A DNA stretch of 62,334 nt from a virus. Of the stretch, positions 7,546-53,435 are shown in pieces. The DNA is taken from positions 1-62,334 of IMG/VR virus record IMGVR_UViG_3300000101_000013; one strand, given 5' to 3'. A model generated the notes under the pieces. The model ran no database searches and had not been told where the DNA came from. It worked only from the letters and a program-made list of their open reading frames with translations. Numbering within the stretch: the first letter of the stretch is position 1; every line of letters begins with the position of its first letter. A program made the position numbers and the translations under genes.

Positions 7546-10077
7546 TTAACTTCCTATCGATATATTACTTGGTCCTGATAATGTCCAAGGATTTTCTTGA
7601 TTATATTTAGAATATAAAATTTTATTTGCTTGTCCCATCCTAGAATTTGAAACATCGTTATAATCGTTGTCAGCACCTGTATCATTTACAACACTTTTTG
7701 CATCTTCTATAATTCTATCTTTTAAATCACTTGGTGACATGCCAGGTAAGACTTGTAAGTGTAAACAACATAATCCAGCTACTTGAGGTGCCGCCATTGA
7801 AGTTCCGCTAATACTCATTTGATAAAAACTAGCATTATCAGAATACGCTACGGGTGCAAATTTACTAGTGTCATAATCATTTGATGTTGCACTCATAATA
7901 TTCGAACCCGGTGCCCATATATTACATCCTGGGCCTCTACTTGTAAAAATACTAGGCTTGTCTTGATTACTTGCACTTACACTACTATCTATACTCGCAA
8001 CCATATAAGCATTTAAACTGTAAGGTGAACTGCCTTGATGATATGTTAAATTTGTTGTCCATAATACCTCGTTAGCATAATCAGCACCTGCGCCTGAATC
8101 TATTTTATTATAATTATTTCCAGCTGCAATTACTACGTGTATTCCTGCATCTACCATATCTTCAATTTCTGCATCAACACTAGCGACTCTTATCGATATA
8201 CGACATGCTGGCGAACCGCCTGAGGTTGTTCTATTTTGGTTTACTCCGGTTGCTGTTTCTAACTCTGCTCGAGTAGTATAATCAACACCGTATGTCCAAG
8301 CAGTTCCTCTGTATGTTCCGCTTGTTGGATCTCCTGTCCTTGTAGTTCCGTATCCCCAACTCATGTTAACAACAGTAGGTCTATTAGCATCAGCTCCTGA
8401 CTTATTATTATGCCATAAACGTATTGTATCAAATGCGTTAGTAATACTAATTCCGCTATTAGGGTCTAATGCACCTTCTAGTCCACCAAGTTTTTGCGAA
8501 TATACTCTTGCGTTTTTTGCCCAGCCAAATGTCTTACCTGTAGCAATACCTGCACAGTGAGTACCGTGGCCGTCATAGTCTGTATAAAAATTTGCGTCTT
8601 GTGTTTCACCAACAATACCACTACCACTAAACCAGTCAATCTCTTGTACTCTTGATGCAGACGGTTGTGCTGAATATCCCGATACTCCGGCATCACCATC
8701 TTGAAATATACGTTTTAGTATATTAAAATCTGGTTTACTAAGTACTGGGGCAAAGTATTTGTTAAACATGGCATAACCTAGTGGATTATTTGATTGCATG
8801 CCTGCTGGTGTTTTTAAAGTATCATCCCATTCAGGACTAAGACTTTCTCCGTCCCAAAACTCACTCATATCCCACATTGACCAATTTACCAAATAAGTAT
8901 ATTCTTTATATGCTATTGTTGCTGCATCAGGATCTGTCGCCCAGTCAGTAGAGTATCCACTCGGATCGTATAGTCCTGCGTCAATAGCTTCTTTCATAGC
9001 AAGATGTAATTCTGTAGTTGTCCAAGAAAAACTTGGGTTACTATTTAATATCATCAGCAATGTTTCCATTGGAACTTGTGTTGCACTTCCTTCTACAGCC
9101 CCCGGAATACCAAAGTTGTGTATTGTATGGAACAAGTGTTCCATTATCTCTTCAATATCTCTATCGCTTGTACTTGGATCAGGACCGCTTGTATTTTTAT
9201 ACCACACCATGTCATTTACAAGATGCGAATCTAAAAATGCTTGATATCCTGTATAACTTGGAATGCCTGCATCTAATAACCAGTTGGGTGTATATGATGC
9301 TCCGCCACCATAACCAATTCGTTGTGCTGTTGGAGTTCCTGCATGTGTTGTTCCTGCATCACCTTTAAGTGTTGCAATTAAATTTTTCTGTTGTGTAATA
9401 TCAATGCTATCTCTATTAGGATCAATTAATAACTTTACAGCCTGCGCTGTTTTCTTTACCCATTCATCTGGTACTGTTGTAGCACCGCCGACCGCTCCTG
9501 CTGCTACAAGTTTTATACCCCTTACAGTTAAACTTCTGTCAAAAACTGCTCCATTAGTAGCATCATTTACTAATGCACCACTTACATATTCAGTTGTGTT
9601 AGGCATGTAAAACTCAGGATGGTCTGCTTGTATTCCGCTATCTTGTACAATAAAGTCAACACCTGTTCCGTCTAAAGGATATGTATAATCACCAGTTAGT
9701 GTAGTTGCATCGTCAAATGTCCCTACATTTGTTTCTTCAATACATCTACGCAATCCCCAATTTACATGAGTATTATTAGTGCTTGATCCCCTATACCATA
9801 TTTCAGTTTGACTAGCATTTAGTCCAATTGATATATCATCGCGTTGATCCGCTGGTATTTCAACAGCTAACACTCTTTCGTCACTTGCTAATGTTTCTGC
9901 TTCTGCATCAGTTAACATCCAATGGGTCATTCTTTTTGACCCCCATCTTGGATTTGCTACTTCAACTGCTCTATTTGGAATTGGTCCAGATCCTGTGTCT
10001 GCTGCAACTTCTGCGTCAAACTCTTCTAAATCTACACCTCTATTAACAACTACTACGTACTCTTTTTCATTAGCCAT
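7546..10077 (-). CDS. Subtilisin-like serine protease (S8) with large insertion
   Basis: The S8 catalytic residues are all present in 843 residues: Asp146 in VQDSGIQ, His504 in GHGTHCAG, the oxyanion Asn in AAGNN (about 654) and Ser760 in SGTSMAAP. The first 75 residues (EYVVVVNRG to ERVLAVE) look like an I9-type propeptide, but no signal peptide is visible. Between Asp and His there are about 358 residues where subtilisins have about 30. The inserted region (about 165-490) is helical and contains EHLFHTIHNFGIP near 313. Placement between fibre genes suggests a virion-associated protease that processes fibres or attacks host surface protein. It overlaps the start of the upstream 502-residue fibre gene's end by 8 bases. 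The family call is firm; the target is unknown. Confidence 0.9.
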   Translation of the reverse strand: MANEKEYVVVVNRGVDLEEFDAEVAADTGSGPIPNRAVEVANPRWGSKRMTHWMLTDAEAETLASDERVLAVEIPADQRDDISIGLNASQTEIWYRGSSTNNTHVNWGLRRCIEETNVGTFDDATTLTGDYTYPLDGTGVDFIVQDSGIQADHPEFYMPNTTEYVSGALVNDATNGAVFDRSLTVRGIKLVAAGAVGGATTVPDEWVKKTAQAVKLLIDPNRDSIDITQQKNLIATLKGDAGTTHAGTPTAQRIGYGGGASYTPNWLLDAGIPSYTGYQAFLDSHLVNDMVWYKNTSGPDPSTSDRDIEEIMEHLFHTIHNFGIPGAVEGSATQVPMETLLMILNSNPSFSWTTTELHLAMKEAIDAGLYDPSGYSTDWATDPDAATIAYKEYTYLVNWSMWDMSEFWDGESLSPEWDDTLKTPAGMQSNNPLGYAMFNKYFAPVLSKPDFNILKRIFQDGDAGVSGYSAQPSASRVQEIDWFSGSGIVGETQDANFYTDYDGHGTHCAGIATGKTFGWAKNARVYSQKLGGLEGALDPNSGISITNAFDTIRLWHNNKSGADANRPTVVNMSWGYGTTRTGDPTSGTYRGTAWTYGVDYTTRAELETATGVNQNRTTSGGSPACRISIRVASVDAEIEDMVDAGIHVVIAAGNNYNKIDSGAGADYANEVLWTTNLTYHQGSSPYSLNAYMVASIDSSVSASNQDKPSIFTSRGPGCNIWAPGSNIMSATSNDYDTSKFAPVAYSDNASFYQMSISGTSMAAPQVAGLCCLHLQVLPGMSPSDLKDRIIEDAKSVVNDTGADNDYNDVSNSRMGQANKILYSKYNQENPWTLSGPSNISIGS

Positions 10078-11948: not shown

Positions 11949-11958
11949 TATTTATTAT
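11949..11958 (-). promoter_or_regulatory. Candidate late promoter box before the fibre/subtilase genes
   Basis: Minus-strand ATAATAAATA overlaps the stop codon of gmhB and lies about 28 bases upstream of the 110-residue gene. It would allow the 2554-11921 block to be expressed late and separately from the heptose operon. Confidence 0.35.
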
Positions 11959-12551
11959 AACTGATCTGCAAAGTCAGCTAAACTGTCAAATACATAGGTT
12001 TTCTTTTTAATTTCCTTGTACGTATACTTATTTAGCTGTTTTTCGGTTTCTCTTCCATAACCGGTTCTTACAAGTACAGGCCTAGCACCAACCTTCATAG
12101 CTGCTTTTAAATCACTCATTTTATCGCCTACATAGAAACCTTGCTTCCAATGTATGCCTTTTATTTCTTTTGCACAACGTTTAAACATACCAGCATTAGG
12201 CTTTGCAAACATATCATTTTTTAAACTACTTTCACTGTAATATATACCCTCAATACTAGTACAACCTGCTTCACCAAATAAGTTTAACATATGTTCATGT
12301 ACTGATTCAACTTGTTCGTTTGTAAGCACCCCCTTAGCAATGCCGCCCTGATTTGTAAGTATTACAATACGATGTCCTAGTCTACGTAATTTTGCTACCG
12401 CTTCTAAACTTCCTTCAATTGGCTCAAACTGATCTGCAGACTTTACATATGTTCCTAAATCTCTATTGATTACTCCATCTCTATCTAAACCAATTACGCA
12501 TTGTGTTGGAAGTGTAGGAGCGGCTGTTACAATTTTATGTTTATCTATCAT
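11955..12551 (-). CDS. gmhB: D-glycero-D-manno-heptose 1,7-bisphosphate 7-phosphatase (GmhB-like)
   Basis: GmhB removes the 7-phosphate from heptose 1,7-bisphosphate in ADP-heptose synthesis. The 198-residue protein is a HAD phosphatase with the DxD nucleophile motif in GLDRDGVINRD (Asp23, Asp25), motif II in ILTNQGGIAKG, and a KPNAGMF segment then GDKMSDLKAAM for motifs III and IV. NQGGIAKG and the KP-x-G-M-F pattern are GmhB/histidinol-phosphatase-specific. The Cys/His zinc loop of E. coli GmhB is not visible, so this is a zinc-less variant. It is the last gene of the operon and overlaps the upstream oxygenase by 11 bases. HldE and HldD in the same operon support the heptose assignment over histidinol phosphatase. 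Confidence 0.85.
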   Translation of the reverse strand: MIDKHKIVTAAPTLPTQCVIGLDRDGVINRDLGTYVKSADQFEPIEGSLEAVAKLRRLGHRIVILTNQGGIAKGVLTNEQVESVHEHMLNLFGEAGCTSIEGIYYSESSLKNDMFAKPNAGMFKRCAKEIKGIHWKQGFYVGDKMSDLKAAMKVGARPVLVRTGYGRETEKQLNKYTYKEIKKKTYVFDSLADFADQL

Positions 12552-13110
12552 AGGTATACCAACCTGTTATAATATATTTTTCGCCGTTATATATAGGATT
12601 ACCTCTGTGTGGAAATGTAAATCCACAAGGAAAAATTACAACTTTACCTTGTTCTGGCTTTAGTTTTTTACCTTGGTATAAGAATTCTGTTTCTCCGCCT
12701 TCGTCAATATCATTAAGATATAACATATAATTTATAACTCTTGTACTACTACTTTGATCTGATGCTTCAGCATGCCAGGCGTGATATCCTTGGTGTGGGC
12801 GTGTGCGTTGTACACTCATGCCTTTAGGACTATGTTGTTCACTTTGTTTTAACATTGTATATTTTTCTATATATTGTGTAGTATAAACTTCGTGTATTTT
12901 TTTATAGAAATAGTCGCATAATCCAAAGTCATAATGATATTGATTTTGTGTATGTGCCCAATCAAAAACTACTCTATCGTCACTGCTTGCTTCGCCGTGA
13001 TTAGGACGTACAACTTCTCTCTGTGCCATTACATTAAAATGTTTTATAATTTCTTCGCAATACTCTTTTTCAAATATGTTTGGGTATTCTTCTATTCCTG
13101 TAAATTCCAT
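12541..13110 (-). CDS. 2OG-Fe(II) oxygenase, prolyl-4-hydroxylase type
   Basis: A 189-residue double-stranded beta-helix oxygenase. Likely iron ligands are His and Glu in AWHAEASDQ (HxE rather than HxD) and the distal His in FPHRGNP. The 2-oxoglutarate anchor would be the Lys/Arg after it (GEKYIITGWY). The segment LNDIDEGGETEF is characteristic of P4H-like enzymes. Such enzymes hydroxylate proteins, sugars or small molecules with O2 and 2-oxoglutarate. It is one of six different oxygenases in this operon, overlapping gmhB by 11 bases. The substrate is unknown; a glycan or its carrier is the best guess from the neighbours. Confidence 0.8.
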   Translation of the reverse strand: MEFTGIEEYPNIFEKEYCEEIIKHFNVMAQREVVRPNHGEASSDDRVVFDWAHTQNQYHYDFGLCDYFYKKIHEVYTTQYIEKYTMLKQSEQHSPKGMSVQRTRPHQGYHAWHAEASDQSSSTRVINYMLYLNDIDEGGETEFLYQGKKLKPEQGKVVIFPCGFTFPHRGNPIYNGEKYIITGWYTYDR

Positions 13111-13111
13111 T

Positions 13112-13906
13112 TTATTGTTCCTTTAGCATTGGTATATACTGTTCAGCAATTTGTTTGTGTACTTCTTCAGTATAATGTTCACCGTCTAATGTTTCAAACT
13201 TTTTATTAAAAAATGTTTCGGCATTTTGACTTGCAAACTTTGTTTTATTTAATTTTGTATAGTAGTTAGCTGTTTCTTTTGGTACAAAACACCTATTATT
13301 AATATTCCAAACGTACATAGGTACATTATTGTTATTACATATCATATCACATACAGCAATATCTTTAAAATAATCTTCTTGTTCTAAATGTGTATTTTGA
13401 TAATGCCACATTTGGAAATACAAGTGCGAACTACGCCTAGTATCAGGCTCAGCTACCCAAGGTGCTGTTTCTCTGTTGTAAGGAAACATTTCCCAATCCT
13501 GCGGCTGTGGTTTATGATAATGTTCTAAATATTTGTTGTCTACGCTTAATGCAATACTCCAACGATCAACAAGTTCGTCACTTGTATCTTTTTGTAAGAA
13601 AAAGTCTGTAGGAAATATTTTTGTAGGATCTAAATCAGGATTTATCACAATAGGAAATCTACCCCAATATGTACTTTGAATAAACACTTCGTCTATGTCA
13701 TTATATGTTTGGAATGCGTGTGCTAGAAATCTAGGATATACTCTGTTACCTGTTCCTGCGCTTGCCATTACAACACATTTTTTATTATGTTTTTTACTAT
13801 AAAATTCTGCGTAATTATTCGGTCCCCAAGTGTTAGGATCATTGTCTTTACTTGCTCCTTGGTAACCCATACTATGACTACAACCGATAAACAATGTTCT
13901 AGACAT
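13112..13906 (-). CDS. SGNH/GDSL-like hydrolase
   Basis: I start this gene at an internal ATG (13906), giving 264 residues. The protein then opens with MSRTLFIGCSHSMGY, placing the GxSHS nucleophile block at the N-terminus as in SGNH hydrolases, and overlaps the upstream cupin by 8 bases, like its neighbours. A longer frame runs up to 13948. The C-terminus has LDGEHYTEEVHKQIA, which fits the Asp-x2-His block. These enzymes are esterases or acetylhydrolases, often deacetylating or acetylating sugars. The middle is rich in aromatic residues and lacks membrane segments. In this operon it could trim an acyl group from the glycan; this is inference. Confidence 0.65.
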   Translation of the reverse strand: MSRTLFIGCSHSMGYQGASKDNDPNTWGPNNYAEFYSKKHNKKCVVMASAGTGNRVYPRFLAHAFQTYNDIDEVFIQSTYWGRFPIVINPDLDPTKIFPTDFFLQKDTSDELVDRWSIALSVDNKYLEHYHKPQPQDWEMFPYNRETAPWVAEPDTRRSSHLYFQMWHYQNTHLEQEDYFKDIAVCDMICNNNNVPMYVWNINNRCFVPKETANYYTKLNKTKFASQNAETFFNKKFETLDGEHYTEEVHKQIAEQYIPMLKEQ

Positions 13907-14261
13907 TTTGGCTATCACCCTTTTCAACTCTATAATTATCTTCAACACTATCAGGGGTACTTACCTCAATAATAGACCCTGCTTCTACACACATAAGTTG
14001 ATGTGGTAACATAGGAGGAATGTGTTTTGTATCTCCTTTGTTTAGTGTTTCTACAACTAAGTCTGCTGTCTTTGTGTCAATTGTTTTAAGAACAAAGCTA
14101 CCACTTAGCACATGCCATGTTTCATCTTTTTCTCTGTGCATATGCATACTAAACTTAGCACCTTGATTAAAGTTTAATAATTTACCACAGTATAGCTCAT
14201 TAGTTGCAAAGATAGTTTCGCTGCCCCACCCCTTTTCAACTAAGCCGTTCAGTTTCGTCAT
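13899..14261 (-). CDS. Cupin, mannose-6-phosphate-isomerase C-terminal type
   Basis: A 120-residue single cupin with motif 1 as SMHMHREKDETWHVLSG (two His and a Glu) and motif 2 in PPMLPHQLMCVEAGSIIEVST (about 82-102) with its His. The opening VEKGWGSETIFATNELYCGK is like the sugar-phosphate cupins that accompany nucleotidyltransferases and phosphosugar isomerases. It may isomerise or epimerise a sugar phosphate or simply bind a sugar. It overlaps the upstream oxygenase by 26 bases. No GmhA isomerase gene is seen in the operon, but this cupin is not a GmhA homologue and should not be assumed to replace it. Confidence 0.75.
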   Translation of the reverse strand: MTKLNGLVEKGWGSETIFATNELYCGKLLNFNQGAKFSMHMHREKDETWHVLSGSFVLKTIDTKTADLVVETLNKGDTKHIPPMLPHQLMCVEAGSIIEVSTPDSVEDNYRVEKGDSQNV

Positions 14262-14880
14262 TTGTTGCCGCCTCTATTTTAAAGTTTGCTGCTATTGTAG
14301 CACGTCTTTTGTTAGTTTTATTAGGTAAAACATAATGTGGTATCCAACTAGGAAACAATATAAGTTTACCCGGTTCTAGTTCCGGAATAAATTTTTGATA
14401 TTGCCATTGATTAAATATTTGTTCCATTCCAGATGATTGTATAATATTATAGTTAGGACAATCTAAAACTAGTTGCCCACCTATGTCGTCACCTTCTGGT
14501 AATTCTAAAACGTATACTGCACTAATAGATCTTCCTGGAAATGCGTGATCGTGTATTTCTTGGTAATCGTGTTCTTTATAAGTGTTGACCCAAAACTCCT
14601 CACAAGAAATAGTATAAGGCATTACCGGTTTCATATCATCAAAATACTGTTGTGTATAAGGTCTAATGTTTTCAAAAAATACTTGCCAAGGCAGAGCATC
14701 ATTTTTTTTGCTTCTAATACTACTACGGCAACTGCCATATATCCAAGTATCTTCAAAAAAACTATCGTCATCTAAACAGGGCGAAAACTCTTTATATATT
14801 TTGTCGTGTGTTTCTACTTTAGCTTCATACATCCAAGTAGGCCACATGCCTTGAGTTTTTCCGTTTACAATCATTCCCAT
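14236..14880 (-). CDS. 2OG-Fe(II) oxygenase, 2OG-FeII_Oxy_5 type
   Basis: A 214-residue putative oxygenase. The iron site is suggested by QEIHDHAFPGRSISAVYVL, with an H-x-H in place of H-x-D as in many phage members, and a distal His in PSWIPHYVLPN. A basic residue in KRRATIAANF could bind 2-oxoglutarate. The WxxxFFE and GGQLVLDCPN segments follow the family layout. It overlaps both neighbours (10 bases with the upstream DUF6445-like gene, 26 with the downstream cupin). The substrate is unknown. It shares the PSxxxHxVxPN motif with the oxygenases at 16185-16703 and 17826-18341, so these three are probably paralogues. Confidence 0.75.
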   Translation of the reverse strand: MGMIVNGKTQGMWPTWMYEAKVETHDKIYKEFSPCLDDDSFFEDTWIYGSCRSSIRSKKNDALPWQVFFENIRPYTQQYFDDMKPVMPYTISCEEFWVNTYKEHDYQEIHDHAFPGRSISAVYVLELPEGDDIGGQLVLDCPNYNIIQSSGMEQIFNQWQYQKFIPELEPGKLILFPSWIPHYVLPNKTNKRRATIAANFKIEAATNDETERLS

Positions 14881-15389
14881 CCTCCTCCTGGATTTCCTTT
14901 TGTATCAAAGAAAAACACCTGTGTCAATCTTCCTGTTTCTTTGCTATCGCCAAAGCCAGATAACAAACTACTGTGTAAGGAATCTGCTCTGTATAATATT
15001 AATCTATTATACTTGTTTGCTATAGCATCTTGTAATTCAAATTCACCCGAATTAGGTTCAGTAAAAATTCCTGTGCCTGCTTCTTGTGGTGCGTCCGGAG
15101 TAAGGTATAATACTCCTGCCCAGTCTACACCTTCGTCTCTGTGTACCCAAGTATCAACATCTTCTGTGCATAATTGAAAACAAAAACTATCCATTTTCCA
15201 TGCTGTAATTTTTACACCTAATATACCTTCTATTTTCTGCTGTATATATCTTCTATATTCTTCGTCGGCACTATCGCTACGCATACCAGGATACCTACCG
15301 TCACGTTCAAAAGGTAGCTGTAGAACTTGTTCTCTTACATGGTCAGGATTTGCTAAGAAATCGTCAGTAACAATTAAATTAACATTCAT
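14871..15389 (-). CDS. 2OG-Fe(II) oxygenase-like protein (DUF6445 type)
   Basis: A 172-residue protein opening NVNLIVTDDFLANPDHVRE. Candidate iron ligands are the His and Asp of TWVHRDEGVDWAGVLYLTP and the distal His of RADSLHSSLLSGFG, followed by an Arg (GRLTQVFFFD) that would hold 2-oxoglutarate. This pattern fits the DUF6445 family often found in phage and bacterial glycan clusters. It overlaps HldD by 11 bases upstream and the next oxygenase by 10 bases. Its function is inferred from motif and fold; the substrate is not known. Confidence 0.7.
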   Translation of the reverse strand: MNVNLIVTDDFLANPDHVREQVLQLPFERDGRYPGMRSDSADEEYRRYIQQKIEGILGVKITAWKMDSFCFQLCTEDVDTWVHRDEGVDWAGVLYLTPDAPQEAGTGIFTEPNSGEFELQDAIANKYNRLILYRADSLHSSLLSGFGDSKETGRLTQVFFFDTKGNPGGGWE

Positions 15390-16185
15390 TTACATACTCC
15401 TCTACACTTTTAAATTTGTGCATTACTAATTTACTTAAACTATCTAAGTTAGCACATGTGTATTCTTGGTACTGGCCTTTTAAGTTATTGGGCATAGGAA
15501 TATATTCAATATCAGCACTATGCTTTTTTGCAACAAATTCAGCAACTTGTTGAAAACTAATAGCAGTTCCAGTCCCTATATTATATACACCTTTTTCATT
15601 TATGTCAAGCATTTTTTCGTGTATTTTACATATATCACTTACACAAACAAAGTCCCTTTTATAATTTTCACTATTTTCAAATAGTTTTATTTTACCAGTT
15701 TTTGCTTGTTGTGTAAACTTATGAATAGGACTTGCTTGTTCACCTTTGTGATCTTCGTTAGGACCATAAACATTAAAGTAACGAAATCCTTGTATTGTAA
15801 TTTGCGGATTCATGCCTCCTATCCATCTATCAAACAAATACTTACTCCAAGCATAAGGACTTTTAGGATCACTCGGACCTGACTCAGTAAAGTGTGTTGT
15901 ATTACCATAAACACTTGCACTTGATGCATACTGCATATTAACTTTATAAGCATTACATTGATTATAGAGCCATTTAGTAAATTCGTAATTGTGTAATATA
16001 ACTTTATCTACGTCAGTTTCAGTTGTACTACTTATTGCTCCTAAATGTATAACCCAGTCATAATCTTTTACCAAAGGTAATTGCTCTGGATCAAACTCGT
16101 ACCCTGCAACTTCATGTTTAGATTCTAAATAGGACATCATATTTTGTCCTATAAACCCTTTGTGTCCTGTGACCAGAATTTTCAT
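15379..16185 (-). CDS. hldD: ADP-L-glycero-D-manno-heptose 6-epimerase (HldD-like)
   Basis: HldD converts ADP-D-glycero- to ADP-L-glycero-D-manno-heptose, the precursor of LPS inner-core heptose. This 268-residue protein is an extended SDR with the NAD(P) motif GHKGFIG (residues 7-13), an ISSTTETD stretch (about 51) equivalent to the SSTTE of E. coli HldD, YASSASVYG (86-94) and the catalytic YxxxK in YAWSK (111-115). FRYFNVYGPNEDHKG and SENYKRDFVCVSDI match specific HldD stretches closely. It is shorter than E. coli HldD (about 310). It overlaps oxygenases on both sides (1 and 11 bases). The specific assignment over other NDP-sugar epimerases rests on these HldD signatures plus HldE and GmhB in the same operon. 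Confidence 0.9.
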   Translation of the reverse strand: MKILVTGHKGFIGQNMMSYLESKHEVAGYEFDPEQLPLVKDYDWVIHLGAISSTTETDVDKVILHNYEFTKWLYNQCNAYKVNMQYASSASVYGNTTHFTESGPSDPKSPYAWSKYLFDRWIGGMNPQITIQGFRYFNVYGPNEDHKGEQASPIHKFTQQAKTGKIKLFENSENYKRDFVCVSDICKIHEKMLDINEKGVYNIGTGTAISFQQVAEFVAKKHSADIEYIPMPNNLKGQYQEYTCANLDSLSKLVMHKFKSVEEYVNEC

Positions 16186-16703
16186 TAATACACCGCCAAA
16201 TTAAATGCAACAGTAAATTTTGAATTATCTGTTTCGTTAGTAGTAACACCATGTTTTAAATGACTTGGAAAAATAATGATATGTCCATTTTCAACAGCTA
16301 GTTGGCATCTATCATAATCATTATCGAAAAAGAAATGACAACTATCAGTGTCACCAATATCGTAATAGTAGCAGCCTGAATATGTTGCAGGATAATGACT
16401 ATGTATTTGTGCATAGTCTCCTTTATCATATTTTGCTATCCAAGAATTACATACGTAACGCAATTCACGCTGTGCATAATCACATACTGAATTATATATT
16501 TCTTCTTTCAAGGATGTCATTTCACATCCATCAATAATGCAATTCGACCAATCTTTGAAGTTACTTAATTTTACAGTTTTCCCCCACTCGGGTTGATAAC
16601 CAAACTCACTTTTAGCTATGGCTGTTTTAACTTCTTTTTGTATAGTATCAAATTTTTCTGCTTGCCTTACATATACTTTTGTGGGTAAAATATCATAAAT
16701 CAT
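16185..16703 (-). CDS. 2OG-Fe(II) oxygenase, 2OG-FeII_Oxy_5 type
   Basis: A 172-residue putative oxygenase. AQIHSHYPATYSGCYYYD provides the H-x-H iron motif and the aromatic strand usual in this family; FPSHLKHGVTTN provides the distal His. The N-terminus contains the DILPTKVYVRQ start common to phage members, in which an early segment names the product protein's beta core. It overlaps hldE by 11 bases upstream and shares one base with hldD downstream. It is probably a paralogue of the oxygenases at 14236-14880 and 17826-18341. The substrate is unknown. Confidence 0.75.
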   Translation of the reverse strand: MIYDILPTKVYVRQAEKFDTIQKEVKTAIAKSEFGYQPEWGKTVKLSNFKDWSNCIIDGCEMTSLKEEIYNSVCDYAQRELRYVCNSWIAKYDKGDYAQIHSHYPATYSGCYYYDIGDTDSCHFFFDNDYDRCQLAVENGHIIIFPSHLKHGVTTNETDNSKFTVAFNLAVY

Positions 16704-17829
16704 TTATTATCCTTGTGGTGCTATGTCCTTCAACTGTAGGAAAAATAACAACCTTAGCTAGTTCATTACCTACTACGGTATCAAACGTATAGTCGCCACC
16801 TTTTACTATAATATCTGGCTCTAATTTGGTGATTGCTTCTAAAGGTGTATCTTCTTCAAACACAATAACTTCGTCTACAAAACCAAGCTCTAAGAGGCTT
16901 TCCTTGCGGGTGTCTTCTCCGTTAATGGGTCTTAAATCGCCTTTTAACCTCTTGACACTGGAATCGCTGTTAATGCCCACTATTAGTCTGTTTCCAAGCG
17001 TTTTAGCGTGTCTAAGAAGCTTTAAATGACCAATATGTAATATATCAAATACACCATTAGTGAATACAATAATATCTTCTACATCGTCTTGTTTGAGTAT
17101 ATATGTGCCTGCGTGTTTAACACTTTCTGTTGATCCTTTAACTGCAACTTCTAGACATTTTTTATGTGTGTACCCTTTAGTAAGTCCGTAAACAAATGCC
17201 GCCATGAAACAATCGCCAGCGCCAGTAACATCTGATACTTCTAAATTGTCAACTGGTATCTCATATGATTTGCCGTCAATATTAGCAATAACTTCCTCAC
17301 CAGCATTAGTTGTAATAATATTACCCTGCCACTCATCAAATCCCAAACTATGAAACTCATTATAATTAGGTTTTACTAACCATGCATTTTCATAGAACCA
17401 TGCATTTTCTTTTGGGTCAACAATTACTTTACATCCAAATGTATTAATATATTTTATAATATCTTTTGCTTCGTCAAGTACACCTTTGTTATAATCACTT
17501 AGCACAACATAGTCGTACGGTGAAAAGTCAGTCGATTTTACAAGGTCTAATACATCTGTGCCACTTGATTGTGCGTCATCATCAATACGTGTAATATAAT
17601 GTCCGTCACAAATTATTCTAGTTTTAACACTTACTTGTCCTGGTGTTTCAAACATATCAACATCAACACCTAAATTTTTTAAGTTCTCATATACAAGTCC
17701 TGCTCCGCCTCTTGTTTCTTTTTCTTCAATATAAGTTACAACAGGCACAGGTGCTTCAGGGCTGATACGTGTAGACGTACCGTAAATATATTTGTCAATT
17801 ATTATATCACCTAATACTAATACTTTCAT
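16693..17829 (-). CDS. hldE: Bifunctional heptose-phosphate kinase / heptose 1-phosphate adenylyltransferase (HldE-like)
   Basis: HldE phosphorylates D-glycero-D-manno-heptose 7-phosphate at C1 and, after GmhB acts, adds AMP to form ADP-heptose. Residues 1-240 are a PfkB/ribokinase domain: the N-terminal LGDIIIDKYIYGTSTRISPE is close to bacterial HldE, and VTGAGDCFMAAF (201-212) holds the catalytic Asp. Residues 253-378 are a nucleotidyltransferase with FTNGVFDILHIGH (HIGH at 265-268), then GINSDSSVKRLKG and HSTTRII. Total length is 378 against about 475 in E. coli, with the kinase domain shortened. Overlaps of 4 bases upstream and 11 downstream place it inside the operon. Both halves look complete in their active-site motifs. 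Confidence 0.92.
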   Translation of the reverse strand: MKVLVLGDIIIDKYIYGTSTRISPEAPVPVVTYIEEKETRGGAGLVYENLKNLGVDVDMFETPGQVSVKTRIICDGHYITRIDDDAQSSGTDVLDLVKSTDFSPYDYVVLSDYNKGVLDEAKDIIKYINTFGCKVIVDPKENAWFYENAWLVKPNYNEFHSLGFDEWQGNIITTNAGEEVIANIDGKSYEIPVDNLEVSDVTGAGDCFMAAFVYGLTKGYTHKKCLEVAVKGSTESVKHAGTYILKQDDVEDIIVFTNGVFDILHIGHLKLLRHAKTLGNRLIVGINSDSSVKRLKGDLRPINGEDTRKESLLELGFVDEVIVFEEDTPLEAITKLEPDIIVKGGDYTFDTVVGNELAKVVIFPTVEGHSTTRIINDL

Positions 17830-18341
17830 TCGTAATCCATATATACATTGCCGCTTATTGTTGATCCAACTGATCCAGGACGAACATAATGTTCTAAGAA
17901 ACTAGGAAATATAATTATATCTCCTGTTTTTAATTCTGGTCTAAAGTCTAATGGAAAGTCCTTTACGTTTGTGCCTAAATGATTTTGTATATCCTTAAAC
18001 ATAGGATTCATAAAAACAGTTTTTGATTCTTCTACAGTTTCGTATATAACAAAACTCCAAGCACTATTTGGGTGTATGTGTATATCTTGCCAATCAGTTT
18101 TTTTATACTTGTTGCGCCATATAGGGCCAAATCTTGGATTAGGTCCAACTAGATGCTCTAGGTTTTTTGAAATAATACTTACTAGATATTCAAATGTTTC
18201 GGGTGCAATTTTATGTTCTTTTGTAAATGTACTAGGCGTTTCACTGAGCCAAGTAGGCTCAGTATCTTCTTGACTAATGTCAATTTTTTTTAAATCAATA
18301 GTGTCAATAAATATCGGAACACTAAACATATCAACACGCAT
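17826..18341 (-). CDS. 2OG-Fe(II) oxygenase, 2OG-FeII_Oxy_5 type
   Basis: A 171-residue putative oxygenase with DIHIHPNSAWSFVIYE (H-x-H iron motif) and FPSFLEHYVRPG (distal His). The N-terminal MFSVPIFIDTIDL is the usual opening strand. It differs from its paralogues in having an insert of about 20 residues (NPMFKDIQNHLGT) between the two halves of the site. Overlaps are 4 bases with hldE and 1 base with the upstream oxygenase. The substrate is unknown; the family call rests on motifs alone. Confidence 0.75.
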   Translation of the reverse strand: MRVDMFSVPIFIDTIDLKKIDISQEDTEPTWLSETPSTFTKEHKIAPETFEYLVSIISKNLEHLVGPNPRFGPIWRNKYKKTDWQDIHIHPNSAWSFVIYETVEESKTVFMNPMFKDIQNHLGTNVKDFPLDFRPELKTGDIIIFPSFLEHYVRPGSVGSTISGNVYMDYE

Positions 18342-18982
18342 TATGTTCTCCAGGGTTGTGCCGCTGGTAATGGCTTTGCTCTCATTGTTTTATACACTAA
18401 TGTAGCACGTAGTCCTGTATACGATTCATTTGGTGGCATTCCGTGATGTGGTATTTTGCCTTTAAATAAAAATACCCTACCTGGTTTAGGATAAACTTTT
18501 TGCCACTCGTCGTCAAGTTTGATAACTGTTTCGCCGCCCCATTCTTCTTTCCAATTCCTATTTACATAGTATATCCAACTAATACCATTATCACAATCAC
18601 AGTCAGAATGTGGTGTAGTGTTGTGTATATATTGTTGACCGTTAACAAGTATTTCACCTACTTCTAATTCGAAAGGAATTAATTGGGCAACTGCATTATA
18701 AATCATACTCCATGCACTATCTGACGAGTTTGCACTTTGTGGTGGGTATATTTGTTGCTTCAATGCAGGAATCTCTGGCCAGTCTGGATCTGCTCCTATA
18801 TCATAATTTGGATCTTCAGGGTAATTGCTTGTATGCCCGTACATCCAATTATAACCTGTAAATACTGCATCATGAACATGATTAATAATATATTGAGGGA
18901 ATAGATCATCAATTACAATCATTTGATCTTTTGCTAAATCTATTCCAGATAAGTCTTTTGCTTCTTTTCCATTAACTAACAT
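18341..18982 (-). CDS. 2OG-Fe(II) oxygenase with canonical HxD site
   Basis: A 213-residue oxygenase with a classic H-x-D motif in NTTPHSDCDCDNG, a distal His in KIPHHGMPPN and an Arg in GLRATLVYKT to bind 2-oxoglutarate. WGGETVIKLDDEW is the central strand pair typical of the P4H-like class, and the N-terminal IVIDDLFPQYIIN is the usual leading segment. It differs from the three H-x-H members of the operon. It overlaps the carbamoyltransferase gene by 11 bases. It may act on the same carbamoylated sugar or its carrier; that is inference. Confidence 0.8.
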   Translation of the reverse strand: MLVNGKEAKDLSGIDLAKDQMIVIDDLFPQYIINHVHDAVFTGYNWMYGHTSNYPEDPNYDIGADPDWPEIPALKQQIYPPQSANSSDSAWSMIYNAVAQLIPFELEVGEILVNGQQYIHNTTPHSDCDCDNGISWIYYVNRNWKEEWGGETVIKLDDEWQKVYPKPGRVFLFKGKIPHHGMPPNESYTGLRATLVYKTMRAKPLPAAQPWRT

Positions 18983-20777
18983 TTTCTACCTTTGCTAAAA
19001 TTCCGTGTTCTGCTATGTACAGATATTCAATATCACTGTTAGCAAGAGTTCTAAAAGCATCATCTAATGTTTCAACTAAAGGTTCTCCGCCTAAGTTAAA
19101 TGATGTGTTGAATATAATAGGAACACCTGTCTGTTTATAGAATTCATTAATGTAGTCATAGTATAATGGATTCTGTTCTCTTGTTACTGTTTGTATACGA
19201 CATGTGCCGTCGACATGTATAATGCTTGGAATCTTTTCGCCGATGCCTGGTTGGCAATTCATTGCATACATCATATGCGGTGATTCTTTCATTCCACGCA
19301 TATCAAACCATTCTTCTGCATGTTCAGCTAATATAGTACCAGCAAATGGACGGAAGTATTCTCTACGCTTGACTTTGTTAACATGATCTTTACCGTTAGG
19401 ATCTGTCGGATCATACATCAAACTTCTATTACCTAATGCACGTGGTCCTGACTCTGAACGTCCTTGGAACATTGCTACAATATTTTTGTCACACATAAGT
19501 TTCACAACTGATTCTATATCTGTTGTTTCTAACGTAGCATTATATTTTTCAGCTGTTACAGTCACTTGTTCGTTTGTATAATCTCGAGGTAATCCTAAAT
19601 ATAAACTTTCACCAAACGGAAGTACTTTCTTATTTTGTGATGTTTGATGATATGCAATAAATGCCGCACCAATTGCTGTTCCTGCATCGCTAGATACTGG
19701 TTCAACATATAGGTTAATATCCATATCTTTTAAGGTGTCTAAATAGTAATAATTAGCAACACAGTTAAGCCCGTAACCGCCACTTACTACAACATTTTTA
19801 TTGCCTGTACGTTCTACAGCATCTAAAATTAATTTTAATACTTGTTCTTGACTTTCGCTTTGTAATGCATATGCTAGGTCTCTTCTATTTTCAAGATCAA
19901 CAAGTTTATCCTGCATTATTCCTTCTGGTGTATGTAGTTCTTTAAAAAAGTTTTCATTTACTAAAGCACCATTTGGATAAGTTGGTCTAATTAAGTTAGA
20001 ATTTGCTACAGTCCAGTCTCCTCCAGCTGTGTGATATAATGGAGGAATATTAGCATTAGGCTTTCCATAAGGTGATAGCCCCATAGTTTTACCTGCTTCA
20101 ATTGCACTAAATCCACAATACTGTGTTACAGCTTCATATGCTTTAACAATGCCTGCACTATCGTCAATAATAACTTCGTGGTCACCTTCTTCATCAAATT
20201 TTTCACTAGACATATTAGGAACATATGCAGCTCTAAACGGACCATTTCCTCCCAAGTGTTTCCAGATAGTTTTTATATTATATGGATATTCACATGTAAA
20301 AATACTTTCTAATTCATATAACATGTTATCATAGCCATCCATTTGTGCTGGTATAAATGTTCCTGCACCGTCAACAATAACTGCTACTGCATCTTTGAAT
20401 CCGCTTCTATAAAATGCACACGCGGCATGTAGTTTATGGTGTATATGACTTAGGTCAACTACTTGTGGATGATTTAATACGTCGACACTAGGATCATTAT
20501 TAATTAATCCTAATTTACGTGCAAGTCCAGTGTATACATCATCACCTGTAAAATCTACTTTTCCTGCTGTTTCGTTTACTGGTTGTGTATGTGCAATAAC
20601 TAAAAAATCAATCTTGTCAGTGTAATCTAAAATTTTAACCATAGCCGCATAAGGACCGCCATCATATTTTTGTCTACTTAATCTTTCTTCTTCAATAGCA
20701 AATACAATTTCGCCGTCTTTAAGTAAACATACACCGCCGTTGTGCCCTCTTGTAATTGCAGCAATCCATTGACTCAT
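18972..20777 (-). CDS. NodU/CmcH-type O-carbamoyltransferase
   Basis: These enzymes use carbamoyl phosphate and ATP to carbamoylate a hydroxyl, often on a sugar. The 601-residue protein is full length. The N-terminal Kae1-like domain carries ITRGHNGGVCLLKDGEIVFA and EEERLSRQKYDG, with the metal ligands in SHIHHKLHAACAFY near residue 110. GGYGLNCVANYYY (about 334) and the C-terminal YrdC-like part with GRSESGPRALGNRS, RREYFRPFAG and FNTSFNLGGEPLVE complete the family pattern. It shares one base with the glycosyltransferase gene before it and overlaps the oxygenase after it by 11. In the operon it would carbamoylate heptose or another sugar; NodU and TobZ act on related sugar substrates. Confidence 0.92.
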   Translation of the reverse strand: MSQWIAAITRGHNGGVCLLKDGEIVFAIEEERLSRQKYDGGPYAAMVKILDYTDKIDFLVIAHTQPVNETAGKVDFTGDDVYTGLARKLGLINNDPSVDVLNHPQVVDLSHIHHKLHAACAFYRSGFKDAVAVIVDGAGTFIPAQMDGYDNMLYELESIFTCEYPYNIKTIWKHLGGNGPFRAAYVPNMSSEKFDEEGDHEVIIDDSAGIVKAYEAVTQYCGFSAIEAGKTMGLSPYGKPNANIPPLYHTAGGDWTVANSNLIRPTYPNGALVNENFFKELHTPEGIMQDKLVDLENRRDLAYALQSESQEQVLKLILDAVERTGNKNVVVSGGYGLNCVANYYYLDTLKDMDINLYVEPVSSDAGTAIGAAFIAYHQTSQNKKVLPFGESLYLGLPRDYTNEQVTVTAEKYNATLETTDIESVVKLMCDKNIVAMFQGRSESGPRALGNRSLMYDPTDPNGKDHVNKVKRREYFRPFAGTILAEHAEEWFDMRGMKESPHMMYAMNCQPGIGEKIPSIIHVDGTCRIQTVTREQNPLYYDYINEFYKQTGVPIIFNTSFNLGGEPLVETLDDAFRTLANSDIEYLYIAEHGILAKVENVS

Positions 20778-21799
20778 TATTTTTTATCTCCAATTAAATT
20801 AGTATTACCAGGAACTAACTTAGATATTTGCTTTTTAGTTTCTGGTGCTTTTACTACTGTACCTTTGCCTAAATGTTTTCTTACGCTACTACAGATTTCT
20901 TCAATTTGTTTTTTTGTTAATTCCATAACTTCGTCGTTATGTCTATCTTGTTCTTCTTCCATAGTTAAACGTATTGGCGCATATACACGTTTTCCGTCAC
21001 CTACGTCTATAATATCAAACTTAGGATCATCTGGGTAAGAAATATTAATAGGGTAAGTTGACCCTGTTATAATAGTTGCTGTACCATCTAATGCTTTTAC
21101 CATATGTTGACCTAAACTGTCACATCCTAAAAAGTGATCAGCTACATCAATTACACTTGACCAAATACGTAAGTCTGGTATTTGTGGTTGTGCTACTGGA
21201 TACTGTTTATTTTCTGTTTCTTCTAGCGGAACTGGTATTTCACTCATTATAATTATTGCGTATTCTTTTTTAAGTACGTTAATAATATCTACAATATTGT
21301 TTAGTTGAAAACTACGGCTAGTTGGATCTACAATAAAGTCGCCGTGTGTTTCTGTTGTTCTTCCAAATGGTTGTACAACTAATACTTTGTCTTTACCAGT
21401 ACCTTGTTTTATTTCTTCAACAATAGTTGCGGCTTGTACAATTTCTTGTTTGTTTGCATATATTTTAGGAGCGCCTACTTTACGCAATCCTTTGTTATTA
21501 ATGTTAATATCAAATGCTTGTGCTAAGTCACACTTTTGATTGTAATATTCCCATACTCTATATGGTTCTGGTGTTATACAATTTCTGTCTTTGATGTGTT
21601 CTTCAAATAACCCTTTATGCCAGTGGTCGTATGCTCTATTGTGTAGAGTAGGATGTCCTTTATAAAAGTCCATGCCTCCTTCACATACAATGATAAAGTC
21701 ATCGTTGGGATTTTCTTTTTCATATAGTTCAAATGCTGGCAGGGAACATATCACTCTTCCTGCTCCGCCGTTAATAAAAAATGCTGTAGATCTTGTCAA
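20777..21799 (-). CDS. Heptosyltransferase-like glycosyltransferase (GT9 type)
   Basis: GT9 heptosyltransferases move heptose from ADP-heptose to LPS core. This 340-residue protein has the GT-B outline of that family. The N-terminal FFINGGAGRVICSLPAFE resembles the GAxGD loop. A central VVQPFGRTTETHGD segment follows. DVADHFLGCDSLGQHMVKAL (about 230) and TIITGSTYPINISYPDD match the family's D-S-x-x-x-H-x-A and GxTxP motif region. Motifs are degenerate, so confidence is moderate; another sugar could be the donor. It is the first gene of the operon: AAGGAG lies upstream of the ATG and a sigma70-like promoter just before it. Its presence beside ADP-heptose synthesis genes makes a heptose donor likely. 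Confidence 0.7.
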   Translation of the reverse strand: MTRSTAFFINGGAGRVICSLPAFELYEKENPNDDFIIVCEGGMDFYKGHPTLHNRAYDHWHKGLFEEHIKDRNCITPEPYRVWEYYNQKCDLAQAFDININNKGLRKVGAPKIYANKQEIVQAATIVEEIKQGTGKDKVLVVQPFGRTTETHGDFIVDPTSRSFQLNNIVDIINVLKKEYAIIIMSEIPVPLEETENKQYPVAQPQIPDLRIWSSVIDVADHFLGCDSLGQHMVKALDGTATIITGSTYPINISYPDDPKFDIIDVGDGKRVYAPIRLTMEEEQDRHNDEVMELTKKQIEEICSSVRKHLGKGTVVKAPETKKQISKLVPGNTNLIGDKK

Positions 21800-21928: not shown

Positions 21929-22657
21929 TTACATTATGATTGAATCAGTATCTGGATCAACCATTCCTGTTTCTGGATCTGCTCCAACTTGGATCGGTTC
22001 CATGTTGTATGCAAATATTGCAGGAACTCCGGCATTTTGCAATACTGTTGGCCAGTCACGTAGTCTTTGACGATAGTCTTCCCACTGTGTTCTAAGTGCT
22101 GCAGGCATGTCTGGGTTAAGTTCACTATCACTGTTTTTTAAGAAAGAGTTACGTTTTGCTCTAACATCATCCCAAGTAATATCTCTTCCAATATCAATAC
22201 CCATAATATAATCTCTAGGTTCTTTAACTGGTATTGTTGGTACACCGTCTGCATCAAATGTTACTTGATCGTCATGTAAAAATTGATACGGTAGTACTGG
22301 TGTTTGATATGTAAATGGTGCATATCCTGCAATCTTAGTTGCTCCTGTTGGTGTAGCTTCACCTGTATGATCTTCTTCCATCTCGTCGATGATCGGTCCA
22401 CGTAACTGACATAATTCTGGATGTTCTGTGCAATCTATTTCTACATATCTGCAATCATCTGGAATTGGTCTTCCATCGTTTTTTTCAATCTCTGTGATAG
22501 GTCCTAATTCTTCTCTGTTTGTAGTATTGTTTACAATGAAGAAAAGTTTATCAGGTCCATCGTACTGAGCCGTTCTTGTATTACCATCTGTAAAAGTATG
22601 GTCCACACATAGTTCATTTGGAACATTGTATGTGTAATTAAATTGTATCATTGGCAT
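21929..22657 (-). CDS. Structural protein with tail-assembly-chaperone-like C-terminal domain
   Basis: A 242-residue protein. Residues about 165-215 (RAKRNSFLKNSDSELNPDMP, then WEDYRQRLRDWPTVLQNAG) match the pattern of phage tail assembly chaperones/tail-fibre assembly proteins (an R-x-x-L-L-x-x-SD segment followed by W-x-x-YRQ-x-LRD-P). The N-terminal part is acidic with no motif I recognise. It is downstream of three cysteine-rich genes, so it may help fold or attach those fibre tips. AGGAGAG and a double AATAAATA box lie upstream. It ends at a strong hairpin terminator. The chaperone domain is fairly clear; the client is inferred. Confidence 0.65.
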   Translation of the reverse strand: MPMIQFNYTYNVPNELCVDHTFTDGNTRTAQYDGPDKLFFIVNNTTNREELGPITEIEKNDGRPIPDDCRYVEIDCTEHPELCQLRGPIIDEMEEDHTGEATPTGATKIAGYAPFTYQTPVLPYQFLHDDQVTFDADGVPTIPVKEPRDYIMGIDIGRDITWDDVRAKRNSFLKNSDSELNPDMPAALRTQWEDYRQRLRDWPTVLQNAGVPAIFAYNMEPIQVGADPETGMVDPDTDSIIM

Positions 22658-22693: not shown

Positions 22694-23503
22694 TTAGTAA
22701 AAAGTTAGTTTGACTAATCCCGGTCCGCCTGTGCCACCTTGGCCACAGCATCTACCGCAATAGTTTGATGTTGCATTTTGACCGCCTTGTCCGTATGGTG
22801 CTATCCAGCAACCACATCGTATCCAGCAATAATTTGAGTTTTGTTCAGCATATCCTGTGTTTAAAGCTACAGCACCTGTTGAGTGTCCTATGTGTTTCCA
22901 ACAGTGACATGCACTACCTGGATACATATAAGCTGACGCACCCTGGAAGTTACCACCGTGTGTATAACCTACATAGTCTTGACTTGAACTTGTGCCGTTA
23001 CAACCAGATTGTACACAGTATGGCATACTAGAGTGACAGTTATCAGTCCAAGAGCCGTTTGCACAACCTCTTTGTCCGCCACATGCACAAACACATATTC
23101 CTGCACCACATGCAAACGATGAACATCCATTACAGCCGTTACATTCTCTACTTAGACATCTATAAACACCTGCAGCACACATTCTATATGTACATCCAGA
23201 TGTTGTCTGTATTGTCTTACTTGTATATGCTCCACCGCCTGGAGGTCCAAAGTGTTGACATCTGTTACATGAACAAGCACCAGATCCGTTTCCGCCAGCA
23301 CCCCATAATTCAAAATTTAAATTTCTAACTTGGTCAGGTGTAGTCCATAAACAACAACACCCTGCTGAACATCTGCATGGATTACCCCATGTCCATTTCA
23401 CACACCAGTTGTCTCTCACTCCTGCTGCAAAATTATCTGCATCAACTGATCCGTCAACTATTTGTGCTCCGGTAACTTTTTTATAACTTCTATAACTTGC
23501 CAT
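22694..23503 (-). CDS. Cysteine-rich glycine-rich adhesin-like protein, copy 1
   Basis: A 269-residue protein with about 31 cysteines by hand count. It has the shared plan of the three tandem copies: a start of the SYKKVTGAQIVDGSV type, a CRCSAGCCCLW block near residue 42, ELWGAGGNG, CSCNRCQHF, GVYRCLSREC and a C-terminal CGRCCGQGGTGGPGLVKL. The glycine-rich end with a GGPGLVKLTF close is like the polyglycine tips of phage adhesins. Cysteine density argues either for disulphide-bonded or metal-bound folding. The start has no clear AGGAG, only a GGGACAAG run. Similar proteins occur in marine T4-like phages, to my recollection, but I know of no described function. Receptor binding is inferred. 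Confidence 0.7.
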   Translation of the reverse strand: MASYRSYKKVTGAQIVDGSVDADNFAAGVRDNWCVKWTWGNPCRCSAGCCCLWTTPDQVRNLNFELWGAGGNGSGACSCNRCQHFGPPGGGAYTSKTIQTTSGCTYRMCAAGVYRCLSRECNGCNGCSSFACGAGICVCACGGQRGCANGSWTDNCHSSMPYCVQSGCNGTSSSQDYVGYTHGGNFQGASAYMYPGSACHCWKHIGHSTGAVALNTGYAEQNSNYCWIRCGCWIAPYGQGGQNATSNYCGRCCGQGGTGGPGLVKLTFY

Positions 23504-23512
23504 TTCTTGTCC

Positions 23513-24292
23513 CTAAATATATGTTAGTCTTACTAGGCCGCCACCGCCGGTTCCGCCCTGTCCACAGCAACGACCGCAATATGTATTCATTGCACTTTGT
23601 CCACCAGTTCCGTATGGTACACTAAAGTTACCACAACGTACCCAACATTCTCTAATACCTTGTGTACTTATTCCGCCGATAATTGGTGCAACACCTTGAT
23701 GTATTTCTTGCACGTGACAATGACAATAGCCTGACGCTGTTGACCACGCTGGATTGTTTGGAACAACATACATATCACCATTGTTGTGTGTTGGACATCT
23801 ACAATATGCATTTGTATAGAAACATCCGTTTGACCATGATGTGTTTGCTTCTGCTCTATATCCACCACAAGCACAAAAGCCTGACATGTTATAGCCGTTC
23901 ATATAAGTTGTACACCCATTACAGCCTGTACATTCTCTACTTAGACATCTATACACACCAGAAGCACATGTAGTATATGTACATCCTGGTCTTGTTCCTA
24001 GTGTTTTTGTGTTATGACTACCGCCCATGGCTGCTTTAAAGTGTTGACATCTGTTACATGAGCATGAACCTGCGCCATTGCCTCCAGCTCCCCATAAGTC
24101 TACAGTTAATCTGCATACTCCAGTAGGTACAGTCCAGTTACAACAGCAACCTCCACTACATCTACAAGGTACGCCCGATATCCATTTTACACCATAATTG
24201 TTTAATGTATTTGAATTAATATCATTATCAGTTAATGTTCCATTAACCATTTGGTCGCCGTGTACCTTTTTATAACTTGCATAACTTGCCAT
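23513..24292 (-). CDS. Cysteine-rich glycine-rich adhesin-like protein, copy 2
   Basis: A 259-residue paralogue of its neighbours with about 27 cysteines. The conserved blocks are all present: SYKKVHGDQMVNGTL, CRCSGGCCCNW, DLWGAGGNG, CSCNRCQHF, GVYRCLSREC and CGRCCGQGGTGGGGLVRL. The middle third (after YMNGYNMSGFCACGG) diverges most from copies 1 and 3 and would be the likely specificity region. It sits 9-10 bases from each neighbour. It has fewer cysteines than the others because the segment after the second block loses several. The function is inferred as for copy 1. Confidence 0.7.
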   Translation of the reverse strand: MASYASYKKVHGDQMVNGTLTDNDINSNTLNNYGVKWISGVPCRCSGGCCCNWTVPTGVCRLTVDLWGAGGNGAGSCSCNRCQHFKAAMGGSHNTKTLGTRPGCTYTTCASGVYRCLSRECTGCNGCTTYMNGYNMSGFCACGGYRAEANTSWSNGCFYTNAYCRCPTHNNGDMYVVPNNPAWSTASGYCHCHVQEIHQGVAPIIGGISTQGIRECWVRCGNFSVPYGTGGQSAMNTYCGRCCGQGGTGGGGLVRLTYI

Positions 24293-24302
24293 TAATAATT
24301 CC

Positions 24303-25085
24303 TTACGTAAATGTTAATTTTACTACTCCTGGTCCACCTGTTCCACCTTGTCCACAACAACGTCCACAGTATGAAGCCATTGCTCCTTGACCACCATGTC
24401 CTGGAGGTGCAATCCAACAACCACAACGTATCCAACAAACTGATTGTGACATACTAACATTACCACCTAGCATAGGTGCTGCTGTTGGTCTAACATATTG
24501 ATGGTGACAGTGACAGTTGAAAATACCGCTAAAGTGTCCAATGTGGCTCATTATGTGCATCTCGCCTCTGCCTGTTCCACATCCTGGTCCAACACAACAA
24601 CCCCAACAACTGAAACAATAGTTTGACCAGTCAGTGTTTGCGTTTGCGCAACGTCCGCCTACTGTACATAGGGTACAAGCGTTGTAACCGCAAACATATG
24701 AAATACATCCGTTACAAGCAGAACATTCTCTACTCAAACATCTGTACACACCGCCTGCACACATTCTGTATGTACAACCTGGTGCTGTAGTAATTGATTT
24801 TTGATTATATGATCCGCCGCCAGCCCCATGATAGTGATGACATCTGTTACATGAACATGCACCATTTCCATTGCCGCCTGCTCCCCAAAGTTCAAAATGT
24901 ACTTTACGTGTACACCCAGGTGCTGTCCATAAACAACAACAACCTGCTGAACATCTACATGCATCACCAATTAGCCACTTAGTACAAAGTCTGTGACGAA
25001 CACCGCTTCCCATTTTATCTTCGGTAACCGATCCGTCAACAATCTGCTCATTTGTAACTTTTTTATAACTATCGTAAGTTGCCAT
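24303..25085 (-). CDS. Cysteine-rich glycine-rich adhesin-like protein, copy 3
   Basis: A 260-residue paralogue with about 33 cysteines, the highest of the three. It carries SYKKVTNEQIVDGSV, CRCSAGCCCLW, ELWGAGGNG, CSCNRCHHYH, GVYRCLSREC, a CFSCWGCCVGPGCG cluster absent in copy 2, several histidines (CHCHHQY) and the CGRCCGQGGTGGPGVVKL ending. Its N-terminal and C-terminal sequence is closer to copy 1. The His/Cys-rich centre might bind a metal, or the cysteines may form disulphides once outside the cell. It lies 15 bases downstream of the 233-residue fibre gene. Confidence 0.7.
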   Translation of the reverse strand: MATYDSYKKVTNEQIVDGSVTEDKMGSGVRHRLCTKWLIGDACRCSAGCCCLWTAPGCTRKVHFELWGAGGNGNGACSCNRCHHYHGAGGGSYNQKSITTAPGCTYRMCAGGVYRCLSRECSACNGCISYVCGYNACTLCTVGGRCANANTDWSNYCFSCWGCCVGPGCGTGRGEMHIMSHIGHFSGIFNCHCHHQYVRPTAAPMLGGNVSMSQSVCWIRCGCWIAPPGHGGQGAMASYCGRCCGQGGTGGPGVVKLTFT

Positions 25086-50553: not shown

Positions 50554-50611
50554 TTGTTTTCTCCTTTTAAAACGTTCTAGGTTTACGCAGTGGGTCATTT
50601 CTGCATAAGTC

Positions 50612-50624
50612 CGCATGATGCGGC
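50612..50624. other. Small hairpin
   Basis: CCGCA TCA TGCGG (5-base stem) upstream of the 205-residue gene's true start. Of uncertain meaning. Confidence 0.25.
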
Positions 50625-50640
50625 ACGATTATTGACACAA

Positions 50641-53358: not shown

Positions 53359-53385
53359 TGACACTCTCCTCGTTAAAGTTAAGTG

Positions 53386-53427
53386 CGTTCCTTCGCTAAT
53401 GCTACTTCCGGGCTTGACGCCTGAACG
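53386..53427 (-). promoter_or_regulatory. Glutamine riboswitch (glnA / downstream-peptide class)
   Basis: On the minus strand CGTTC (53427-53423) pairs with GAACG (53390-53386) as P1. GGC/GCC forms a short second helix with GTCAA loop. CGGAAGTAGC and GCGAAGGAACG flank a small ATTA loop, which reproduces the diagnostic GGAAGUAG and CGAAGGAACG blocks (E-loop) of the glutamine riboswitch. It lies 27 bases before the start of the 50-residue gene, whose ribosome site it can control. The class is recognised by motif only. Confidence 0.8.
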
Positions 53428-53435
53428 TTGTATTA

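Follow-up and report, generated by a model that had tools for sequence, protein, structure and literature searches.

The bacterial route to adenosine diphosphate (ADP)-heptose uses GmhA, HldE, GmhB and HldD, and a co-occurring lipopolysaccharide (LPS) gene set including T4-GC 304, 305, 307 and 308 was described in three phages in 2010 (PMC3037559). In the cyanophages that carry T4-GC 302-308, these genes lie beside tail genes in the order GT9-like, carbamoyltransferase, adenylyltransferase, kinase, small haloacid dehalogenase (HAD) protein, cupin and epimerase. Here we analyze a related cassette in the virus record IMGVR_UViG_3300000101_000013 (the window, that is, the whole 62 kb stretch of DNA, whose positions are used as coordinates below). 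Our leading reading, which we hold tentatively, is that this late cassette of a marine T4-like phage makes ADP-heptose and attaches it, carbamoylated, to a surface, with the phage's own tail adhesin proteins as the likeliest target. We further propose that its key gene encodes a small cupin that would replace GmhA, so that the phage could make ADP-heptose from sedoheptulose-7-phosphate itself.

The cassette consists of 13 open genes in a single late operon on the minus strand (21799-11955), most of whose ends overlap or touch. Listed 5' to 3' along the operon, they are:

20777-21799, minus strand: GT9/heptosyltransferase-like protein by predicted fold (340 residues; phrog_8954, T4-GC 302), proposed heptose transfer enzyme
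18972-20777, minus strand: NodU/TobZ-type O-carbamoyltransferase by Pfam (601 residues; T4-GC 303), proposed to carbamoylate heptose
18341-18982, minus strand: 2-oxoglutarate (2OG)-Fe(II) oxygenase (PF13640)
17826-18341, minus strand: 2OG-Fe(II) oxygenase (PF13759)
16693-17829, minus strand: fused short HldE by profiles and motifs (heptose-7-phosphate kinase plus heptose-1-phosphate adenylyltransferase; 378 residues)
16185-16703, minus strand: 2OG-Fe(II) oxygenase (PF13759)
15379-16185, minus strand: HldD-like ADP-heptose 6-epimerase by profile and PDB match (268 residues, N-terminal half shortened)
14871-15389, minus strand: DUF6445 protein, provisionally grouped with the oxygenase-like genes
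14236-14880, minus strand: 2OG-Fe(II) oxygenase (PF13759)
13899-14261, minus strand: cupin (120 residues; phrog_7851, T4-GC 307), proposed sedoheptulose-7-phosphate isomerase in place of GmhA
13112-13948, minus strand: SGNH-hydrolase-like protein by motifs alone (GCSHS close to the N terminus and DGEH close to the C terminus; profile searches gave no match)
12541-13110, minus strand: 2OG-Fe(II) oxygenase (PF13640)
11955-12551, minus strand: GmhB-like HAD phosphatase by profile and PDB match (198 residues, zinc loop absent)

The initial annotation had named the heptose genes, the transferase and the carbamoyltransferase correctly, but passed over eight further genes within the same coordinates, namely those for the cupin, for the SGNH-like protein and for six oxygenase-like proteins (DUF6445 included). 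It had also regarded such a near-complete set as out of the ordinary, a view that did not survive comparison with other phages: the cassette turns up repeatedly among marine T4-like phages, and the window carries a variant of it. A scan of viral contigs for HldE gave 328 relatives, one for the GT9-like protein gave at least 525, and P-SSM2, S-SSM7 and S-CAM3 have matching kinds of gene in nearly matching order between tail genes (T4-GC 302-308). Particular to the window are its fused HldE, which is split in the cyanophages, its larger GmhB-like protein, which stands full-size at the operon end whereas the cyanophages have a small HAD protein before the cupin, and the number of its oxygenases, which exceeds that of the T4-GC 302-308 cluster. 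The epimerase gene, reversed in the cyanophage cluster, here precedes the cupin in operon orientation. A megablast search of a 16.7 kb region of the window against annotated phages gave no match. Many GT9-like loci (L175, L179, L181, L209 and L224) also carry a tryptophan-halogenase homolog within the cassette.

Strong sequence evidence places HldE and HldD among the heptose enzymes. HldE scored 263.7 bits against the NCBIfam HldE model, short of the cut-off of 521, and its kinase and adenylyltransferase domains (163.7 and 154.9 bits) likewise fell under curated cut-offs yet far above unrelated families. Both halves keep their motifs, namely RISPEAPVPV, SDYNKG and GAGD in the kinase and GVFDILHIGH, KGGDY and STT in the adenylyltransferase. 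The protein is shorter than the aligned bacterial copies (378 versus about 465-475 residues), with the losses in its kinase half. HldD reached 241.3 bits against TIGR02197 (cut-off 274.6, not reached); its best PDB match is E. coli HldD (1eq2, 4e-51), and it retains the nucleotide-binding GxxGxxG, YxxxK, HKG and FExSENxKRDF motifs, with part of its N-terminal half lost. The GmhB-like protein (145.6 bits, under the NCBIfam cut-off of 178) has the HAD motif DRDG and GmhB enzymes as its best PDB matches, while the zinc-binding loop with its cysteine cluster is missing and AKP stands in place of the RKP motif. Since all three score below the NCBIfam equivalog cut-offs, we call them divergent members by motif and not by curated score. 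The profile searches proposed in the initial annotation bear out its assignment of HldE (both halves) and HldD with key motifs, and that of the phosphatase as GmhB-like. The window HldE is possibly a phage-made fusion. Its adenylyltransferase half is at most 60% identical to stand-alone Bacteroidota copies, and its kinase half is far less similar.

The first enzyme of the bacterial pathway was not found. GmhA (PF13580 or TIGR00441) was detected in none of 54 and none of 17 phage records, four complete cyanophage genomes among them, nor was it detected in the window. Of 18 bacterial genomes that carry HldE, 15 yielded GmhA-like genes with the same TIGR00441 model; the control genome of Synechococcus elongatus gave no match to this model. 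Cyanophage genes labeled 'phosphoheptose isomerase' (phrog_1238; L082:13119-13463, L083:14097-14432, L084:13083-13403 and L085:14272-14610) were considered as GmhA and rejected: their products are about 110 residues long, start with the motif DID(G/N)TIC, and give weak HAD-like matches or none, with no sugar-isomerase match. The label is probably wrong in at least P-SSM2, S-SSM7, S-CAM3 and P-TIM68, where the product looks like a small HAD protein.

What accompanies the heptose genes instead is the cupin: of the 47 viral loci that extend far enough to show it, 46 have it no more than 5 kb from HldE. Among 26 contigs picked by their GT9-like gene, it is present in all 13 that carry HldE and HldD; the other 13 include one with a cupin devoid of metal ligands, two with a distant cupin and ten with none. 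Nine residues (K27, H40, H42, K45, E47, H87, E99, D108 and R111) are all kept in 74 of 76 distinct cupins, and the metal ligands H40, H42, E47 and H87 are among them. The only two cupins without metal ligands (L184, 18473-18838, and L185) come from phages in which neither HldE nor HldD was detected. A search of bacterial genomes carrying HldE revealed no clear homolog of the cupin.

D-lyxose isomerase converts a ketose to a manno-aldose, and the pairs D-lyxose/D-xylulose, D-mannose/D-fructose and D-glycero-D-manno-heptose/sedoheptulose belong to a single homologous series in their stereochemistry, which makes a fold of the D-lyxose isomerase kind plausible as a replacement for GmhA. The active site of that enzyme comprises K62, H75, H77, K86, E88, H143, E156 and D163 (PMC8378251), and in our alignment seven of these eight residues have counterparts in the phage cupins (K27, H40, H42, K45, E47, H87 and E99). 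Matches to the D-lyxose isomerase family PF07385 were obtained for 17 of 21 cupin members, most of them weak, and matches to PF01050 (phosphomannose isomerase C-terminal) for 15 of 21; the window cupin itself reached the cut-off of the latter (24.8 bits, cut-off 23.6) and not that of the former (13.9 bits, cut-off 20.8). It resembles D-lyxose isomerase and the type II phosphomannose isomerase cupin in its metal ligands, two lysines and the region of the catalytic glutamate, and differs from them as a single short cupin with weak scores.

The transferase that heads the operon has no significant sequence match in Pfam or the PDB, and its homologs reach 15-17 bits against PF01075, below the threshold of 22. 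Its AlphaFold2 model (predicted local distance difference test, pLDDT, 84; predicted template modeling score, pTM, 0.83) is more informative in that the 30 best PDB structure matches are WaaC, TibC and WaaF, all ADP-heptose heptosyltransferases, or a GT9 protein. The predicted GT-B fold and the ADP-site DS..H segment are shared with the LPS enzymes WaaC and WaaF, though no significant sequence match exists, and the fold is also that of the autotransporter heptosyltransferases TibC and AAH, with identity of about 11%. An hhalign comparison of WaaC (the sequence used matched PDB 2gt1 over its full length) with the profile of the GT9-like protein aligned the N-terminal segment alone, at low probability. 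By fold the protein is heptosyltransferase-like, as had been proposed for the gene at the head of the operon, and we refrain from assigning it to GT9; its role in heptose transfer is proposed from the model together with co-inheritance. Long matches to it occur in 23 annotated phage records, each of which also matches HldE (one copy is cut by a contig end), and seven of eight GT9-like contigs of at least 90 kb have both HldE and HldD, the eighth having remnants. The neighboring carbamoyltransferase, likewise noted earlier, is clear, with both NodU-type Pfam domains present (7e-59). Carbamoylated heptose is known from Pseudomonas LPS (PMC8005017), where WapO, encoded in a cluster with heptose genes, puts carbamoyl on heptose; the phage enzyme may act likewise.

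The surroundings of the operon bear on where the heptose may go. Directly upstream are two features:

21929-22657, minus strand: tail-fiber-assembly/chaperone-like gene, directly upstream of the operon and kept beside the GT9-like gene in relatives
22694-25085, minus strand: candidate acceptors, three tandem Cys/Gly-rich paralogs (phrog_4205) close to the tail-assembly-like gene on its upstream side

Further upstream is a tail fiber of 2340 residues, and downstream of the operon are a baseplate/tail-fiber-like protein and a subtilase-domain protein. With few exceptions among loci not cut off by a contig end, the GT9-like gene stands between tail genes on its upstream side and the carbamoyltransferase downstream, both with and without heptose genes nearby, and the phrog_4205 paralogs lie upstream of it in most loci. 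This position, together with the presence of HldE in all annotated records with a long GT9-like match, leads us to prefer a virion protein as the acceptor, and TibC provides a precedent for protein heptosylation (PMC4358343). Of the two uses suggested in the initial annotation, a change to LPS or decoration of the virion, surface or virion decoration in general is the likeliest, with tail proteins favored and a host glycan remaining a rival. The subtilase-domain protein (843 residues, 7546-10077) follows the operon closely and lies in the tail region.

In the scheme we propose, the cupin, replacing GmhA, would convert host sedoheptulose-7-phosphate to D-glycero-D-manno-heptose-7-phosphate, which the HldE kinase would phosphorylate to the 1,7-bisphosphate. 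The GmhB-like HAD protein would then yield the 1-phosphate, the HldE adenylyltransferase ADP-D,D-heptose, and HldD ADP-L,D-heptose, from which the GT9-like protein would transfer heptose to a presumed acceptor and the NodU-type enzyme would O-carbamoylate it at a putative position. Taken as a whole, with synthesis free of GmhA, the D-lyxose-isomerase-like cupin at the sedoheptulose-7-phosphate step and carbamoylated heptose on tail adhesins, this scheme is rather doubtful. It does turn the 'LPS genes' of cyanophages into a concrete, testable pathway, offers a candidate enzyme for the step that GmhA performs in bacteria, and suggests a way for phages to glycosylate tails with a sugar reportedly absent from cyanobacterial LPS.

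Several observations weigh against it. The acid of the phage cupins that matches D163 sits at a different spacing, and hhalign pairs the cupin with D-lyxose isomerase weakly (probability 17%, E 0.0015). Top Foldseek matches of the cupin comprise quercetinase and oxalate decarboxylase in addition to D-lyxose isomerase, and with so promiscuous a fold Foldseek alone singles out no isomerase identity. In the transferase, an invariant Arg15 aligns with the catalytic Asp13 of WaaC, so this protein may have lost activity or work as a variant transferase. Heptose genes are not seen on some of the GT9-like contigs, perhaps owing to fragmentation and perhaps not; a recognizable GmhB is nearby in 24 of the 47 viral HldE loci, leaving about half without one, and in some GT9-like loci GmhB occurs although HldE does not. 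Finally, the acceptor cannot be read from the adjacency of genes.

A fairly plausible alternative, though one we would not bet on, is that the cassette alters host LPS or another surface glycan during infection, for example by limiting superinfection or changing a receptor, with heptose made partly via host GmhA and the cupin doing something else to the sugar. The cyanophage homologs have long been called LPS genes (PMC3037559), the LPS enzymes WaaC and WaaF are among the solved structures closest to the transferase, HldD would produce the L,D form that LPS contains, and receptor recognition combined with receptor change could account for a site beside tail genes. Yet these genes occur in cyanophages, and cyanobacterial LPS is reported to have no heptose (PMC4390846), the transferase stays linked to tail genes across loci, the operon has no LPS ligase or core gene, and a host-glycan pathway would depend on the host for GmhA, which none of the phage records searched contains. 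The lack of GmhA in the phage records searched, the reported absence of heptose in the LPS of cyanobacteria and the co-inherited cupin with an isomerase-like active site together undermine the earlier suggestion that host GmhA supplies the first step. A role in immune signaling or defense, also raised at that stage, was rejected, as no gene in the operon points there.

It is unlikely that the enzymes instead make another nucleotide sugar or small molecule, tailored by the oxygenases, cupin and carbamoyltransferase, and not heptose for a polymer or protein. Sub-cut-off scores of HldE, HldD and GmhB against the NCBIfam equivalogs, the segments lost from HldE and HldD, and the missing GmhB zinc loop would all suit such a product, as would the tryptophan halogenases of other cassette members and the fact that NodU-type enzymes act in antibiotic synthesis too; on the other side are the intact HldE- and HldD-specific motifs, a transferase fold that points to ADP-heptose, and the site among late tail genes. 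Very unlikely is a remnant or near-neutral cargo with no working pathway, the 'stuffer DNA' raised in 2010 (PMC3037559). One 146 kb contig does have degraded HldD and HldE remnants, but open frames, gene order and active-site residues are conserved over many divergent contigs.

The phage itself belongs near the jumbo T4-like phages, in that its major capsid protein (53920-55092) is nearest to those of Phosso, Vibrio 2.275.O and PA5oct (67-69% identity). These capsid relatives infect Sinorhizobium, Vibrio and Pseudomonas and are not cyanophages; psbA, among related contigs, was seen in cyanophage isolates and contig G072 only. On both grounds we rejected a plain cyanophage identity for this phage. 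The freshwater-2 RNA and glutamine riboswitch families have minus-strand matches among its structural genes (50551-50625 and 53382-53429).

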